From Alphaproteobacteria bacterium (GTDB taxonomy: Bacteria > Pseudomonadota > Alphaproteobacteria > CADEGL01): DNA of 59,106 nt. Positions 2,556-9,202 of the stretch are shown here, in pieces (within the stretch, counting starts at the first letter, position 1; each line of letters opens with the position of its first letter). Made by a program: the position numbers and the translations under genes. The stretch lies in NCBI GenBank assembly GCA_026400755.1, contig JAPLOM010000012.1:1-59106 (forward strand), read 5' to 3'. The notes under the pieces are model-generated. The model saw only the letters and a program-made list of their open reading frames with translations. It did no database searches and was not told the origin of the DNA.

Positions 2556-2674
2556 GCGGGTCGAATCCTTCAGCCGTGGGGAATGCGCGCATCCGCGCGA
2601 GAACCTAGCCTTAACAGGCCCGGGGGCTGCGTATAGTATGGCCGCGTCCCACGCTTCGGAAAGCCCATAAGCGC

Positions 2675-3670
2675 ATGACTCCCGCGGATGATCCCAATAA
2701 GCCGGCCAGCGCCGGGCCCGATGGCGGCCGCCTAACCACCGAGGCCGAACAGGCCGCCGCCGATGCCGCGCGCGCGGCCAACGTGCCGATGAACGCGTGG
2801 ATCGCGCAAGCCATCCGCAAGGCCAGCGTGCAAGGCGCGCCGGGGGCGGCGCACGCAGCACCAACCGCCGCCCTTCCCAACGTGGCCGATTTGGCCCGCC
2901 GCGTGCCGATCGGCGCACTATCGCCCGGGCGCTTTCAGACCCGCGACCGCATCACGGCGGAAGAGATCGAGGAATTGGCCCAGTCGATCCGCGCCCGCGG
3001 CATCCTGCAGCCCATCCTGGTACGGCAGCGCCCGAACGCACTCGAATCCTACGAGATTTTGGCGGGTGAGCGCCGCTGGCGCGCGGCCCAGGCCTCGGGT
3101 CTGACGGAAGTGCCGGTCGTCGTGCTGGCGCTTAACGATCATGACGCGATGGAAGCGGCGCTGGTCGAGAACATGCAGCGACAGGACCTGTCGCCGCTGG
3201 AGGAGGCCGAGGGCTACCGCCGCCTGATCGAGGATTTCGCCCACACGCAGGAAGACGCCGCGCGCTTGGCGGGCAAGAGCCGCAGCCACATCGCCAACAC
3301 GCTGCGCCTGATCAACCTGCCCGACGCGGTGAAGACGCTGCTGAATGACGGCAAGCTGTCGGCCGGCCATGGCCGCGCGGTGCTCAACGCGCCGAATCCG
3401 GGCGCGATCGCCCAGGCCGTGGTGGCGCGCGGGCTGAACGTCCGCCAGACCGAGGAGATGGTCCATCGCGCGCTGCGCGACGGCACGTCCAAGGCCGTGC
3501 GGACGACGAAGGACGCCGATATCCAGGCGCTGGAAAAGGAGCTCAGCGAGCTTCTAGGCATGAAGTGCGCCATCAACTACCGCAACGACCGGGGCAGCCT
3601 GAACATCCGCTTCCAGGATCTCAGCTCCTTGGGCCAGCTGATCGCCCGGCTCCAGCGCGCGGCCCGCTGA
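2675..3670 (+). CDS. ParB/Spo0J-family CTPase-fold DNA-binding protein with an N-terminal W-motif extension
   Basis: 331 aa. The ParB core is complete: GILQPILVR (about 109-117), GERRWRAA (131-138) and ENMQRQDL (166-173) are the CTP-binding motifs. A helix-turn-helix follows at about 192-212 ([20 protein letters not shown]), and the C-terminal dimerisation region begins near [12 protein letters not shown]. Such proteins load on parS-like sites and spread as CTP-dependent clamps. Two features are unusual. The LGRGL ParA-stimulating motif near the N-terminus of chromosomal ParB is absent. In its place residues 23-51 ([17 protein letters not shown], Trp42) resemble a ribbon-helix-helix unit and recur in the next two genes. 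No parA is adjacent. It is either a ParB paralogue or a divergent housekeeping ParB; I favour a paralogue. Confidence 0.85.
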
Positions 3671-3698
3671 ATCATCCGCCTATCTCGTTGTTTCATAG

Positions 3699-3724
3699 GG
3701 CCTTTTGCTCATTCGGCAAAAGCC
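3699..3724. terminator. Hairpin after the ParB-like gene
   Basis: GGCCTTTTGC (3699-3708) pairs with GCAAAAGCC (3716-3724) with one bulged base and a 7-nt loop. It begins 28 nt after the ParB-like stop. There is no following T-run, so intrinsic termination is only possible, not shown. Confidence 0.35.
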
Positions 3725-3738
3725 TGTGGCATGGGAAT

Positions 3739-3747
3739 TGCTACAAT
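3739..3747 (+). promoter_or_regulatory. Candidate extended -10 promoter for the coiled-coil gene
   Basis: TGCTACAAT matches an extended -10 element (TGnTATAAT). No clear -35 lies at the right distance, as is common for extended -10 promoters. It is about 47 nt before the ATG at 3795 and would let this gene be transcribed apart from the ParB-like gene. Confidence 0.35.
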
Positions 3748-3794
3748 ACCGTCACATTTCGTTTTGCCCGGCCGGGGGCCGGGGATGGTTGCGT

Positions 3795-4292
3795 ATGAAC
3801 GAGCCTCTTTCGTGGGTGCTTGAAGGGGTGGAACCGGAGGCGCAGGAAGCCGCGAAGCTCGCGGCCAAGCGTGCCGGCCTCTCGCTCGGGACCTGGATCT
3901 CCCAGACGCTGATGACCGCGGCAGCCGTTGAGCTGAAGCGCGGGACAGGCGCGTCCGCGCAAACCCCCTTCACCACCACCGCGACCAGCGGCGGGCATCA
4001 GCCGCCGGCGCTCACGACCGAGATGCTGCTCGACAACATTCGACGCCTGTCCCAGCGCATCGAGACAGCCGAACAGCGCACCAATGAAGCCATCACACCA
4101 TTGAGCGAAAAGATGGCCCATTTGTCCGAGCGGGTCGAAGAGGTCAGCACGCGCGCGAACATCTCGACCGCGCCGATGGAGCGGGCGATGGCCCGCATGG
4201 CCGAGCGTCTCGAGCAGTTGGAGAACAAGGGCCGGCCCGGCCGCCTCTCCGACGATCCTCCCACACCGCGCCGGCGCTTCCGGCTCCTCTAA
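3795..4292 (+). CDS. Small coiled-coil protein with N-terminal W-motif (unknown function)
   Basis: 165 aa, no signal peptide or membrane segment, so probably cytosolic. Two blocks can be seen. Residues 14-43 (PEAQEAAKLAAKRAGLSLGT then WIS, Trp34) look like a ribbon-helix-helix type segment. Residues 78-145 are heptad-rich and likely coiled coil (LLDNIRRLSQRIETAEQ, ITPLSEKMAHLSERVEEV). Both blocks are repeated in the cytoplasmic part of the downstream Sel1 protein, so this gene looks like a soluble paralogue of that half. The tail is basic and Pro-rich (PPTPRRRFRLL). The start at 3795 (MNEPLSW) was preferred over an upstream in-frame start because it has a G-rich ribosome site and aligns with the neighbour. 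I do not recognise a named family. Confidence 0.75.
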   Translation: MNEPLSWVLEGVEPEAQEAAKLAAKRAGLSLGTWISQTLMTAAAVELKRGTGASAQTPFTTTATSGGHQPPALTTEMLLDNIRRLSQRIETAEQRTNEAITPLSEKMAHLSERVEEVSTRANISTAPMERAMARMAERLEQLENKGRPGRLSDDPPTPRRRFRLL

Positions 4293-4351
4293 CAGACCCG
4301 GCATTCCAACGCGCCGTTCGGCGCTTGTGGGTCGGCGCGCGCTGACCCATT

Positions 4352-6385
4352 ATGTCGCCGGGCGCATTCGCGGTCGAAATGGCGGACGACTCCAACAACT
4401 TCAACCTCACGGACCTCGATCCCGAAACGCGTGCGGCGGCCGAAGCCGCCGCCGCTGAAGCGGGCTTGTCCGTCGAGCAATGGATCAGCCGGGTCGTCCT
4501 GGCCAGCGCGCCGCCACCAGCCGCCGCGCCGCCACCGCCGCCCGCGCCGCCGCGTCCCGTCATCGTGCAGACACTGGTGCCCAGCCTGCACCCCGCGCTC
4601 GGACCGGCCGGCGCCGCGCCGCGCCGCGTGATCCGGCCGGCCGCGCCCCTGCGGCCCGTGCCGGCCGCGCCACCCGCTCCGCCGCCGCCACCCGAGCCGC
4701 CGCAGGCGAAAGAAGAAGAGCCGCCCAAATCCCTCGAACCGGCGACGCCGGCATCGGCAGCGCCCGGTGCGGCGCCCAACGAAGCCTTGTCCGACCAGGC
4801 GCTGATGGACGCGCTGGACGCCCTGGTCGACCGGGTCGAAACCAACGAACGCGTGATCGGCGAAATCCTGACTCCGCTCGAAAAGGCGGTGGAAAGCCTG
4901 GAGCGCCAGCTCGACGCGATCGACACGCCGCCCGGCGAGCCGGCCGCGCCCAAAGCCACCGAGGCCGTGGTCGTGGCCGTCCCGGACGAAACGACGCCGC
5001 GCTTCACTGACATCCATCCGCCCGCCAAGGACGTGCCGCCACTCCTCCCCGACATGGACGAGTTGGAGGCGCGCGCCGAGATTGAGCGGGACGACGAAGC
5101 GCTGGCGCGCGATAGCGAAATCATCGATCTCGACCAGCAGCTCGAGATTCCAGCCAAGGGTTCAGAGTCCGCGCTCGTCGACGAATCGCCGCCGCCGCCC
5201 ATCGTGCCCGGCGCGGCCATCCAAACCGCGCGCATGATTGCGCTGGGCGCCATTTTCCTGGCCTTCGTTTTGGTCGGCGCGCTGGCCTATTTCTGGTTCA
5301 GTCAGGACAAGGGTCTGCCCGTGCCGCGCCCGCCCGCGCCAGTCGCGGACACGGCGCCGGAGAAGACCCACACGCCGGGCGACGAGACGCCGCCCGCCGC
5401 GAAAGACGACAATGCCGAGACAGCGAAGGCGCCCGACGCGGAGACCGCGGCGCGCACCGACGGCGTGAAGCCGCCCGCGCAAAAGCCGCCGCCGCCCCAA
5501 GCGGCCGCGCCCGCTGCACCCACGCCAACTCCGGCGCCCGCGCCCGCGCCAACACCTTCACCCACGCCGGCCCCCGCGCCGCAAGCATCGACTCCGTCAC
5601 CCGCCGCGCCTTCTGCCACGCCGCCAAGCCAGCAACCCTTGAGCGCGCCGCCGCAGGCAAGCGCGCGTCCCGGTCCACCGGCGCCCGCCGCGCAACCGCC
5701 GCAGACGGCCGCCGCGCCGATGGCGGCACAGTCCGCCGCCGCGCGGACGATCGAGCAACTCAAGAATGCGGCCATGCGCGGCGAGGCCGCCGCCCAGCAC
5801 GACCTGGCCATTCTCTATGCCCAGGGCAACGGCGTGACCCAGGACTATCGCGAAGCCGCGCGCTGGTTCCGCGAGGCGGCGCTACAGGGTGTCGCCAACG
5901 CGCAATACAATCTGGGCGTGCTGCACGAGCGGGGCCTGGGTGTGCAGAAGGATCCGCTAGAAGCGCTGCTCTGGTATTTGAGCGCGGCCGAGCAAAACCA
6001 CACCGCCGCGCAGTACAACGTGGGCGTGGCCTACGCCGAGGGCCGCGGCATTCCGCAGAACTACACCGAAGCGCAGAAGTGGTTCCTCAAGGCCGCCGAA
6101 CGCGGCTTGGGCAAGGCCCAGTACAACCTGGGCATTCTCTACGAGGAAGGACTGGGCGGCCCGACCAACCTGATTGAGGCCTATCGCTGGTACAAAATCG
6201 CCGCCACGCAGGACGAGCCCGACGCCCAGCGACGCTTGGGCGAGATCGCGCGCAAGATGAACGCGCAGCAGATCGCCAAGGGCGACGAGCTGGCGAAGCA
6301 GGGCGTGAAGGCCAAGGCCGAGGACACCCCGGCGGGCGCGGCACCCGTTCCCGCCGCGCCACCGAAGGCGAAACCCAAGAGCTGA
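4352..6385 (+). CDS. Membrane-anchored Sel1-like repeat protein, PodJ-like architecture
   Basis: 677 aa from the ATG at 4352; the ATG at 4379 (MADDSNN) is an equally plausible start. Order of parts: W-motif segment at about 24-52 (LDPETRAAAEAAAAEAGLSV, then QWIS, Trp44); Pro/Ala-rich linker; short coiled coil at about 151-190 (LVDRVETNERVIGEILTPLE); acidic stretch; one membrane helix at about 295-316 (MIALGAIFLAFVLVGALAYF); long Pro/Ala-rich periplasmic linker; four or more Sel1/TPR-like repeats at about 470-630 (AAQHDLAILYAQGNGVTQDY, AQYNLGVLHERGLGV and others). Cytosolic N-terminus, single span and periplasmic Sel1 repeats match alphaproteobacterial polarity factors such as PodJ, although the C-terminal peptidoglycan-binding domain of PodJ is not evident. 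Role in polar organisation is inference. Confidence 0.85.
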   Translation: MSPGAFAVEMADDSNNFNLTDLDPETRAAAEAAAAEAGLSVEQWISRVVLASAPPPAAAPPPPPAPPRPVIVQTLVPSLHPALGPAGAAPRRVIRPAAPLRPVPAAPPAPPPPPEPPQAKEEEPPKSLEPATPASAAPGAAPNEALSDQALMDALDALVDRVETNERVIGEILTPLEKAVESLERQLDAIDTPPGEPAAPKATEAVVVAVPDETTPRFTDIHPPAKDVPPLLPDMDELEARAEIERDDEALARDSEIIDLDQQLEIPAKGSESALVDESPPPPIVPGAAIQTARMIALGAIFLAFVLVGALAYFWFSQDKGLPVPRPPAPVADTAPEKTHTPGDETPPAAKDDNAETAKAPDAETAARTDGVKPPAQKPPPPQAAAPAAPTPTPAPAPAPTPSPTPAPAPQASTPSPAAPSATPPSQQPLSAPPQASARPGPPAPAAQPPQTAAAPMAAQSAAARTIEQLKNAAMRGEAAAQHDLAILYAQGNGVTQDYREAARWFREAALQGVANAQYNLGVLHERGLGVQKDPLEALLWYLSAAEQNHTAAQYNVGVAYAEGRGIPQNYTEAQKWFLKAAERGLGKAQYNLGILYEEGLGGPTNLIEAYRWYKIAATQDEPDAQRRLGEIARKMNAQQIAKGDELAKQGVKAKAEDTPAGAAPVPAAPPKAKPKS

Positions 6386-6400: not shown

Positions 6401-7462
6401 TCACGCGAAGCGCGGAATCACCTTCTCGCCGACGAGCTGAATCGAGCGCATCACTTGCGCGTGCGTGGTGCGGCCGGCTTGGAACATGAACAGCAGCTGG
6501 TCGAGACCGGCGTCGCGCCACTTCGCGACCTGGCGCGACACCGTGTCGGGATTGCCGCCGATGGCCAGCGCGTCCTCCACCAGTTCGTCGTCCGCGCGCC
6601 GCGAAAATTTCTCGGCCACCTGGTGCAGGGCGCTGCCGCTCGCGAAGCGGACATGGTTCAGCTCCGCATCGTTCTGGCCGAAATACCAGCGCGCGGCGTT
6701 GCAACCGACCGTGCGCCCCTCGCGGTCATCGTCGAGGCAGACGCCGACGGCGAAGGCCGCCGCATGTTCGTTGTCAACGCTGGAGAGCCGGCCCGTCCGA
6801 TCCGGATCGCGAATGGCCGCGCGGTAGGCGTCGATCGCGGGCTTGGTCTCGGCGGGCGTCGTGTGCGCGATGCCGATCGCGCCGACGCCCAACTTCCCCG
6901 CGTGTCCCCAGGTATCGAGGCTGGACGCCGCGACCCAGAGCGGCGGATGGGGCCGCTGAACCGGACGCGGCAACACATGCCGCGCGGCGAGGTCGAAATG
7001 CTTGCCCTTGTAGCCCGGGAAGAATTCGCCTTCGAACATGCGCAGGACCGCATCGAGCGACTCGTTGGCCTTCTCGCGCCCCTCGCGCGGATCGAAGCCC
7101 AAGCCTTCGACGATGTAGGGATAGGCGCCGCGTCCGCAGCCGAACTCGGCGCGTCCGCCGCTCAAGACATCCAGCGTGCCGACGCGCTCGGCCACCATGA
7201 ACGGGTTGTGGCAGGGCAGGATGATGACGGCGAAGCCCAGGCGGATGCGCGACGTGCGCTGGCTGAGCGCGGCCAGCAGCATGTCGGGGCAGGCCGAGTG
7301 GCCGATCTCGGCGCAGAAATGCTGCTCGGTCACCCAGACATAGTCGAAGCCGGCCTTCTCCGCCGCCACGGCCTGGTCGAGGAAGTTGCGATAGGCTTGC
7401 TGCTCGGCGTCCGCGCTCCACGGCCGGGGCATCTGGAGCTGGCACATCAGGCCGAATTTCAT
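6401..7462 (-). CDS. LLM-class flavin-dependent oxidoreductase (luciferase-like monooxygenase family)
   Basis: 353 aa TIM-barrel enzyme of the bacterial luciferase superfamily, which uses FMNH2 or F420 to oxygenate or oxidise small organic substrates. Family features: start MKFGLMCQLQMPRPW, AEKAGFDYVWVTEQHFC, the middle LGFAVIILPCHNPFMVAERV segment, and LSGGRAEFGCGRGAYPYI. The C-terminal GNPDTVSRQVAKWRDAGLDQ block is also typical. It is the last gene of a minus-strand run and begins 16 nt after ispE ends; the two have no obvious metabolic link. The substrate is unknown. It converges with the Sel1 gene with a 15-nt gap. Confidence 0.88.
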   Translation of the reverse strand: MKFGLMCQLQMPRPWSADAEQQAYRNFLDQAVAAEKAGFDYVWVTEQHFCAEIGHSACPDMLLAALSQRTSRIRLGFAVIILPCHNPFMVAERVGTLDVLSGGRAEFGCGRGAYPYIVEGLGFDPREGREKANESLDAVLRMFEGEFFPGYKGKHFDLAARHVLPRPVQRPHPPLWVAASSLDTWGHAGKLGVGAIGIAHTTPAETKPAIDAYRAAIRDPDRTGRLSSVDNEHAAAFAVGVCLDDDREGRTVGCNAARWYFGQNDAELNHVRFASGSALHQVAEKFSRRADDELVEDALAIGGNPDTVSRQVAKWRDAGLDQLLFMFQAGRTTHAQVMRSIQLVGEKVIPRFA

Positions 7463-7478
7463 CGCATCATCCCCGTGT

Positions 7479-8405
7479 TCAAATTTTCAGTGTGCGCGTG
7501 TCGGTCACCAGGCGCGAGGCGTCGGTCCACCAGCCTGGCTGCGCGCGCTTGATCTCGACAGCCGCTTCGGCCGCCTCGCCATCGTCCGCGAACAGACCGA
7601 AGCAGGTGGCGCCGCTGCCCGACATACGCGAAAGCAGACACCCCTTCTGACGCGCCAGCGCCGCCAGCGCATCGCCCACGACAGGCATCAGGCGGATCGC
7701 GGGCGCCTCCAGATCGTTCTTCCGTTCGCGCAACAGCGCGGCCAGCGCCACCGCGTCGGCAGGCGCCGCCGCAAAACGGCCCGCTTGCGAGAACGGCTGG
7801 TCGCGCGCACGAAAGACATCCTTGGTGGCCAGCGGCGTGTTGGGATTGACCAGGACCAGCGCCGCCGGTGGCAGCGCGGGCGCCGCATCGAGCTTTTCGC
7901 CGATGCCGCCCATGAAGGCAGCACGGCCAAAGCGGCAGACCGGCACGTCGGCGCCCAGCGAGAGCGCCAAGGCATCCATCGCATCCTCGCCAAGCGAGGT
8001 GCCCCATAGCCGCGCGAGCAAGCCAAGCGTGGCGGCCGCGTCGGCCGAGCCGCCGCCGATGCCGGCGGCAACGGGCAGGTTCTTGGTCAGCGTGATGGCG
8101 GCGTGCGGCGGCACTTGCGCGGCCTCGGCCAGCGCGCGCGCCGCGCGCAGCATGATGTTGTCGCCTTCCATCGCGGCGTGGAGCGCAGGCGCGAAGGGCC
8201 CGTCGACCACGAGCGTCAGCTCGCCGGCCGGCGCGACCGCGACCGTGTCGTGGCTTCCCGCGAAGACAGCCAGGCTATCCAGCAGGTGATAGCCGTCTTC
8301 GCGTTTGCCCGTGACGTGGAGATAGAGGTTCAGCTTCGCCGGCGCCGCGGCGCGCAGCGCCGGGCGCTCCGAGTATCCTCGCGATGCTTTCGCACCTTCA
8401 GTCAT
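7479..8405 (-). CDS. ispE: 4-diphosphocytidyl-2-C-methyl-D-erythritol kinase
   Basis: ATP-dependent kinase of the MEP isoprenoid pathway; phosphorylates the 2-hydroxyl of CDP-methylerythritol. GHMP kinase fold, 308 aa. The N-terminal APAKLNLYLHVTGKREDGYH motif carries the substrate-binding Lys and His, and PVAAGIGGGSADAAATL is the glycine-rich ATP loop. The C-terminal MSGSGATCFGLF is the third GHMP motif. The ATG at 8405 overlaps the stop of the upstream TSUP gene as ATGA; a TTG 12 nt upstream is less likely. Confidence 0.96.
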   Translation of the reverse strand: MTEGAKASRGYSERPALRAAAPAKLNLYLHVTGKREDGYHLLDSLAVFAGSHDTVAVAPAGELTLVVDGPFAPALHAAMEGDNIMLRAARALAEAAQVPPHAAITLTKNLPVAAGIGGGSADAAATLGLLARLWGTSLGEDAMDALALSLGADVPVCRFGRAAFMGGIGEKLDAAPALPPAALVLVNPNTPLATKDVFRARDQPFSQAGRFAAAPADAVALAALLRERKNDLEAPAIRLMPVVGDALAALARQKGCLLSRMSGSGATCFGLFADDGEAAEAAVEIKRAQPGWWTDASRLVTDTRTLKI

Positions 8406-9202
8406 TGATGTCGCCAAATCTTGACGGCCGAGATTACCAGGATGCCGGCCAGCGCCGGCAACAGTACCGCCTGCGGCACAACGCCCAGCAAGAGGCCGCC
8501 CACGAAAGCGCCGACCAAAGATCCAGCGGCCATAATCAATACGAAAGTCTTGTTACTGGCGAGCACAGAGAAACTTTGATCCCGGCTATAGCGCGCAAAG
8601 CCCACAAGCATCGTCGGCAGGCTCACGGCGAGCGACAAACTGCCCGCGAGCTTTATCTCCGCACCGAATAGCAAAATCAGGGTCGGGATCAGCAATTCTC
8701 CGCCCGCCACGCCCAACAGCGAGGCAACGACGCCAATCCCGAAACCAGCCACAACCCCCGCGATCATCTGGGCGGCGCCGGTCAACACAGCCGAAGCGGC
8801 GGTCGTCCCATGGGCGAATAGCAGAATTGCCGCCATCGCCACCAACAAAACGGCAATGATCCGATAGAGCGCGGCCGAACGCAGCCGAACCGCCCAACTC
8901 GCACCGACCCAAGCTCCGGCCAAGCTGCCCGCGAGCAGGTTAAGGATTATCGGCCAATGAGCCGCGATGGTGCCGAACGGAATCGTGCCACTGCGAAAGA
9001 TGAGGGCGGACGCGACAACCACCAGGCTTGTAGCTTTGTTTACAATGACCGCATCCAGGGCCGGGAAGCGAAACAGTCCGATCAGCAGCGGCAGCCGAAA
9101 CTCCGCGCCACCCAGTCCGATCAGTCCGCCAAGCGCGCCAACAAGGCCACCGCTTCCAAACGCGAGTACGCCGCGGCGCAATGTTATTGGGCCCGCACTC
9201 AC
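8402..9202 (-). CDS. TSUP-family (TauE/SafE) membrane permease
   Basis: 266 aa, about seven to eight hydrophobic helices. GGLVGALGGLIGLGGAEFRL near the N-terminus and VVASLLGVAGGELLIPTLIL in the second half are the paired internal repeats of the sulfite exporter TauE/SafE family. Family members move sulfite, sulfonates or other organic anions; the substrate here is unknown. The start is GTG at 9202, overlapping the upstream TPR stop as GTGA, and the 3' end overlaps ispE as ATGA. The gene is visibly less GC-rich and uses codons such as ATA more than its neighbours, which suggests later acquisition. Confidence 0.9.
   Translation of the reverse strand: MSAGPITLRRGVLAFGSGGLVGALGGLIGLGGAEFRLPLLIGLFRFPALDAVIVNKATSLVVVASALIFRSGTIPFGTIAAHWPIILNLLAGSLAGAWVGASWAVRLRSAALYRIIAVLLVAMAAILLFAHGTTAASAVLTGAAQMIAGVVAGFGIGVVASLLGVAGGELLIPTLILLFGAEIKLAGSLSLAVSLPTMLVGFARYSRDQSFSVLASNKTFVLIMAAGSLVGAFVGGLLLGVVPQAVLLPALAGILVISAVKIWRHQ

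Follow-up and report, generated by a model that had tools for sequence, protein, structure and literature searches.

A ParB paralog shares an N-terminal ribbon-helix-helix-type module with neighboring PodJ-like genes: a candidate centromere-envelope tether

What does it mean when a ParB-type DNA clamp begins with the same short segment as the two genes that follow it? The question is raised by three consecutive genes in a 59,106-nucleotide stretch (contig JAPLOM010000012.1 of assembly GCA_026400755.1; hereafter, the window) from an alphaproteobacterium of GTDB lineage CADEGL01. A preliminary description of the window reported that a ParB homolog, a small coiled-coil protein, and a Sel1-repeat membrane protein share an N-terminal motif resembling ribbon-helix-helix (RHH) units, and it proposed that the trio links chromosome sites to the cell envelope. 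Our comparative analysis suggests that a ParB carrying its neighbors' module, encoded beside PodJ-like genes, could act as a direct centromere-envelope tether. The general entity is a PodJ-type array of RHH-module genes; fusion to ParB is a rare addition to it that recurs and appears fully clamp-competent in the window's lineage.

The shared module is not in doubt. All three open reading frames lie on the + strand where they were described, and residues 23-51 of the ParB, 15-43 of the small protein, and 25-52 of the Sel1 protein do align without gaps. Within the first 70 residues, the best ungapped 28-mer triple reaches a BLOSUM62 score of 161, relative to 43 +/- 11 (maximum 73) in 200 shuffles. 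A profile derived solely from sequences outside the window's family recovers the small protein at 6.5e-15, the Sel1 protein at 6.7e-11, and the ParB at 2.8e-4 (Z=10000). Searched with the module profile, the window genome yields exactly three clear matches, which are the trio, and otherwise one borderline match of 16 residues (E 0.017). A chance resemblance or generic alanine-rich helix was rejected on the shuffle test, the out-of-family profile, and this exclusivity to the locus; a motif widespread in the window genome was rejected likewise, the trio being its sole clear matches. Collecting relatives delimits a full domain of 41 residues, with the module consensus W-S-V-K-G-V-x-P-E-A-R-E-A-A-K-x-A-A-R-K-A-G-L-x-L-G-x-W-L-S-x-x-I. 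The two helices originally recognized are part of it, but the ribbon segment that precedes them, W-[ST]-V-K-G-V, had been overlooked. The features of the locus are as follows.

2611..2639, + strand: sigma-70-like promoter match TTAACA-N17-TAGTAT, 36 bp 5' of the ParB start; a consensus match only
2675..3670, + strand: RHH-ParB gene, a second ParB paralog with the module at its N-terminus and without the ParA-binding LG[R/K]GL motif
2741..2827, + strand: RHH-like module of the ParB (residues 23-51), two helices, ribbon degenerate or missing
2897..3178, + strand: ParB_N, CTPase fold (Pfam PF02195, 2.5e-30), GERRxR and ENxQR residues intact
3182..3472, + strand: ParB helix-turn-helix (HTH) domain (PF17762, 4.6e-31), parS-contact residues intact
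3509..3655, + strand: ParB_C, dimerization domain (PF23552, 1.4e-11)
3795..4292, + strand: small protein of 165 aa, module plus coiled coil, supported by homologs; helices 75-121 and 126-145 predicted; ATG 3795 taken as the most likely true start
3813..3935, + strand: RHH-like module of the small protein (residues 7-47), profile match 3.1e-17
4352..6385, + strand: Sel1 protein with module, Pro/Ala-rich linkers, one transmembrane segment, and Sel1 repeats; alternative start ATG 4379
4400..4522, + strand: RHH-like module of the Sel1 protein (residues 17-57), profile match 1.9e-15
5237..5293, + strand: predicted transmembrane segment of the Sel1 protein (residues 296-314), hydropathy peak 2.5
5747..6301, + strand: Sel1 repeats, range approximate, presumed periplasmic (PF08238, 3.3e-41, 4 stretches)

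To which fold does the module belong? The resemblance to RHH units appears to be borne out, in that weak Pfam matches fall mostly on RHH families and the predicted module aligns with RHH structures. Module members match PSK_trans_fac (3.8e-4), FitA-like_RHH (6.5e-4), HicB (1.1e-3, below the HicB cut-off), NikA-like, and TacA1, and a sub-threshold match to HicB, itself an RHH family, covers the shared block in all three window proteins. The predicted module, a monomer model with a predicted TM-score (pTM) of 0.48, features helices at 14-27 and 31-49 and no strand; the ribbon forms solely in a dimer, which a monomer model does not represent. Top PDB matches include the RHH proteins CopG, Arc, TacA, MazE, AmrZ, PutA, and MatP. 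Most of the top structural matches are RHH proteins, with TM-scores of about 0.6-0.7 and Z of 5-6.5 (<8), and the best Foldseek E is 0.58. Overall, the predicted module resembles an RHH-type fold, a case made by the agreement of sequence, helices, and structural matches whose individual scores are modest.

Is the trio a set? Across a sample of one genome per species, many of them fragmented assemblies, the module is present in 74/289 alphaproteobacterial genomes. Wherever a genome has two or more matches (26/26), they lie on one contig within 3.3 kb; in G002, G018, G075, and G100, for example, all matches (3, 5, 3, and 3) occupy a single locus each. A contig scan for relatives also retrieved a locus (L037) from an uncultured Alphaproteobacteria metagenome-assembled genome. 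The recurrent array comprises a gene that we call X (the module and little or nothing else, about 56-170 aa), the small coiled-coil gene, and the Sel1 gene, with one module each (L041, L042, L043, L045, L047, L056, L111, L112, and L113). In many of these loci, fcl/gmd adjoin the array at one end, and ispE with two further genes at the other. The small gene of L055 (7917-8565) and the Sel1 gene of L046 (5512-7070) are apparently split by frameshifts, real or due to assembly error.

In the window's order, a module-ParB fusion occupies the X slot in four genomes (G000, G001, G002, and G003), and a fifth (G004) contains the start of the same multi-module protein as G003, interrupted by the contig end. 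The fusion also occurs in four other families, represented by G010, G018, G053, and G068. Those of G010 and G068 adjoin a Sel1/PodJ-like gene, as do the fusions of family f1; that of G018 heads an array whose last gene is Sel1/PodJ-like; and that of G053 adjoins ispE, in the same slot. Modules may also be repeated within a chain: at least three in the G003 ParB, two in the second small protein of G018, two in the Sel1 protein of G010, and N- and C-terminal copies in the G053 ParB. The module-ParBs of G003 (L040 1037-2641) and G004 (L109 1-465) start with several tandem modules, which are possible docking units preceding the clamp.

The proposed trio thus survives in part. The shared module and the small-Sel1 pair are conserved, but ParB is not a general member: only the window's order and four further sampled families have it in the X slot. 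Since the fusion is rare and more diverged elsewhere, the trio as described represents one lineage's form of a broader type of array. The ancestral set probably consisted of X (the module by itself), a small protein combining module and coiled coil, and a module-transmembrane-Sel1 protein. For the module and the small-Sel1 pair, the idea of a system is not refuted: the motif is confined to the locus, the pair stays together, and an RHH-type fold is predicted.

The membrane protein of the set had been called PodJ-like, and its architecture agrees. A presumed cytoplasmic region that starts with the module is followed by a transmembrane segment and Sel1 repeats; the predicted coiled coil lies in the separate small protein rather than in the Sel1 chain. 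Caulobacter PodJ itself presumably begins with the module. In several genomes with a single match, the module starts a protein of 860-1230 residues with transmembrane, Sel1, and, where checked, peptidoglycan-binding parts. Such single-chain genes (L049, L054, L126, L139, and L142) match the published PodJ architecture (PMC9684454). A single N-terminal module is also found on proteins of ~340-510 aa that have no BLAST match to the ParB or Sel1 proteins: L129 (4969-6297), L130 (4985-6274), L131 (5304-6599), L132 (5041-6303), L134 (4956-6488), L135 (2576-4090), L136 (4456-5697), and L137 (4240-5265).

Does the ParB of the window still look like a working clamp? The preliminary description called it a CTP-binding DNA clamp, and its domains and residues predict competence for both CTP and parS. 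ParB_N, HTH_ParB, and ParB_C all exceed their Pfam cut-offs; the CTP residues (GERRR/ENQR) are all identical to those of Caulobacter ParB; and, in Caulobacter numbering, so are the parS contacts Q162, G170, K171, S172, R173, N178, T179, G201, and R204 (residue roles: PMC7383237). The sole difference among the positions checked is at variable position 184. In the fusions of G000, G001, G002, and G018, every CTP residue is retained, as is every parS contact outside the variable positions. What the fusions lack is the N-terminal LG[R/K]GL motif, which binds ParA (PMC12704722): it is found in 0/8 fusions versus 23/24 canonical ParBs. No ParA was seen among the neighboring reading frames inspected at the trio, where no dedicated ParA search was made. 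The G018 module-ParB (L044 8126-9100) has a Lys/Arg/Pro-rich C-terminal tail that does not align to the ParB_C region.

The window genome encodes its canonical ParB on another contig, with 52% identity to the window's ParB, and within ~3.5 kb of this canonical parB, parS occurs twice as an exact match and once as a near match; the genome has no other matches (<=2 mismatches). A recent duplication of the genome's own canonical ParB is not supported, given this identity and a separate branch. In a rooted tree of the core alone, the fusions fall inside the alphaproteobacterial ParBs and not with their own canonical copies, and one versus several fusion origins is not settled (42/77); the full tree unites the fusions, but the branches of G010, G053, and G068 are very long in it. 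In G018, the fusion is apparently the only ParB and an exact parS lies 3' of mnmE; as the parAB region was not located there, we do not claim that a canonical ParB is absent. In G119 (C2), G201 (C1), and G095 (C60), the module array lies only ~15-20 kb away from canonical parB.

We lean, if only slightly, toward a reading in which RHH modules hold together a split PodJ-type scaffold and the ParB paralog in the X slot tethers parS DNA to it, much as Noc does. In the window's lineage, a ParB paralog with its CTP clamp and parS-reading parts fills the X slot, the module replacing the ParA-binding N-terminus. The clamp would load on the origin-proximal parS cluster adjoining canonical parB and, once CTP-bound, close and slide, uncoupled from ParA. 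Its paired N-terminal modules would dimerize with those of the small and/or Sel1 proteins, and this docking would link the centromere to the membrane-bound scaffold, probably at a cell pole. The logic would be that of Noc (a ParB paralog that brings DNA to the membrane) with a protein adaptor in place of an amphipathic helix. The wider form of this proposal is more tentative and falls a little short of an even chance: a module confined to one locus per genome serves as a docking tag that assembles the split scaffold, and, grafted onto a ParB paralog in several lineages, it provides a direct, CTP-gated parS-envelope tether. PopZ is present in 5/5 genomes of the window's order, so RHH-ParB would be an additional link; an explanation of the second anchor by a lack of PopZ was rejected on the same observation.

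Several observations weigh against the tether. The structure models cover monomers only (pTM 0.48) and contain no predicted interface. Among the module copies, that of the window's ParB has diverged furthest; it shows no clear ribbon and may therefore fail to form a normal RHH dimer. The fusions of G010, G053, and G068 have degraded CTP and parS residues, and a parS clamp is thus not conserved across all fusions. The window itself contains no parS with up to 3 mismatches, Pfam finds no PG_binding_1 domain in its Sel1 protein while that domain is common in relatives, and most genomes that have the array have no ParB member.

What else could the module do? RHH is mostly a DNA-binding fold, and the module may simply be another example: X would be an autoregulator, the other copies would add DNA affinity, and the array would be a nucleoid-envelope DNA tether or an autoregulated operon. 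The structural matches to CopG, Arc, PutA, and MatP fit this, and the family ribbon, in which position 2 is often S/T and position 4 often K/R (72/94), could face DNA. The window's own copies, however, do not follow that pattern. The ribbon is degenerate or missing in the ParB modules of the window's family and of G018; the putative DNA-facing positions 2 and 4 are V and E in the small protein and N and T in the Sel1 protein; and the module-only X is absent in the window's lineage, where the other two modules persist. A missing or degenerate ribbon in ParB and non-basic positions in its two partners would favor protein docking over DNA binding, and we regard the DNA-binding explanation as unlikely.

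The fusion could also be accidental and specific to a lineage, or a paralog in decay: a parB came to lie beside X, fused with it, and now serves a role that has nothing to do with parS or the scaffold, such as local gene regulation. We consider this improbable, even though fusions are rare among the sampled families, CTP and parS residues are degraded in 3/5 fusion lineages, and the fusions are not firmly grouped in the core-only tree: the residues are retained in G000, G001, G002, and G018, the f1 fusions sit on long-separated branches apart from their own canonical ParBs, and both slot and module are kept in five families. Finally, RHH-ParB could be a division regulator of the nucleoid-occlusion type that anchors no centromere: the module would take it to the membrane, where it would keep the Z-ring from assembling over origin DNA. 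Such a role would share with Noc a ParB paralog, an altered N-terminus, and a membrane partner (PMC8429893), and nucleoid_noc is the top NCBIfam match. That match reaches only 207 bits against a cut-off of 315, though; the canonical-sequence parS sites cluster near parAB, unlike the scattered Noc sites; and at the specificity positions (Q173, K179, K184, and R201 in Noc) the window's ParB has R, T, N, and G, which is parS-type rather than the Noc-type QKKR. We rate this occlusion-type reading as distinctly unlikely.

Sigma-70-like promoter matches number 2, relative to 0.2 expected from shuffles, and the match at 2611..2639 is a possible operon promoter. In the window, an LLM-like gene (6401-7462) separates the Sel1 gene from ispE, and ispE is followed by a TSUP-like permease gene (8402-9202), both named by inspection; these two genes break up the arrangement of L040, in which the Sel1 gene, ispE, and the following two genes sit side by side. 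Close to the left end of the window, a tRNA-Gln(ttg) gene lies on the minus strand (309-382).

How does the proposed tether compare with known systems? The preliminary description knew of no system with this trio, and the literature searched (PodJ, ribbon-helix-helix, ParB, and fusions) likewise holds no description of one. Relative to canonical chromosomal ParB, the window's paralog shares ParB_N, HTH_ParB, ParB_C, GERRxR, and the parS contacts; it differs in its extra N-terminal module, its lack of LG[R/K]GL, and the presence of a separate canonical ParB in the genome. Published fusions likewise reuse the ParB-CTPase fold (PMC12704722), whereas here the fused module is common to neighboring scaffold genes; the main text of that study does not contain the terms ribbon-helix-helix, RHH, or PodJ. 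MatP, a structural match to the module, is an RHH-domain protein that joins a chromosome region (ter) to the divisome. Its RHH domain reads DNA, while here the ParB HTH would do so.

PodJ of Caulobacter and Agrobacterium has the same layout of a cytoplasmic N-terminal part with coiled coils, one transmembrane segment, and Sel1/TPR-like repeats; at the window locus, these functions are split over separate genes, a ParB is in the set, and the Sel1 protein has no peptidoglycan-binding domain. PodJ affects origin position in both organisms. In Caulobacter the effect is indirect, as PodJ acts on ParB via PopZ (PMC10127582); in Agrobacterium, origin positioning at the old pole requires PodJ, although the protein shows little enrichment at origins by chromatin immunoprecipitation (PMC9239152). 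A direct link between a PodJ-type scaffold and ParB would therefore be new, and a natural ParB with the scaffold's own N-terminal module offers a physical link that can be tested. If the proposal is true, a fold could be assigned to the N-terminus of PodJ, whose first 250 residues (CC1-3) are required for polar accumulation (PMC8980812), and this N-terminus would likely function as an assembly tag.

The closest parallel is Noc of Bacillales, also a second ParB paralog with a CTPase fold, an HTH, and a replaced N-terminus that is proposed to take DNA to the membrane. Noc uses an amphipathic helix; the window's ParB has an RHH module and a partner membrane gene next door, and its first 18 residues, acidic and Pro/Gly-rich, show no Noc-like amphipathic helix by eye. 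If docking occurs as proposed, ParB paralogs would have a second route to the membrane, through a protein docking module beside the lipid-binding helix of Noc.

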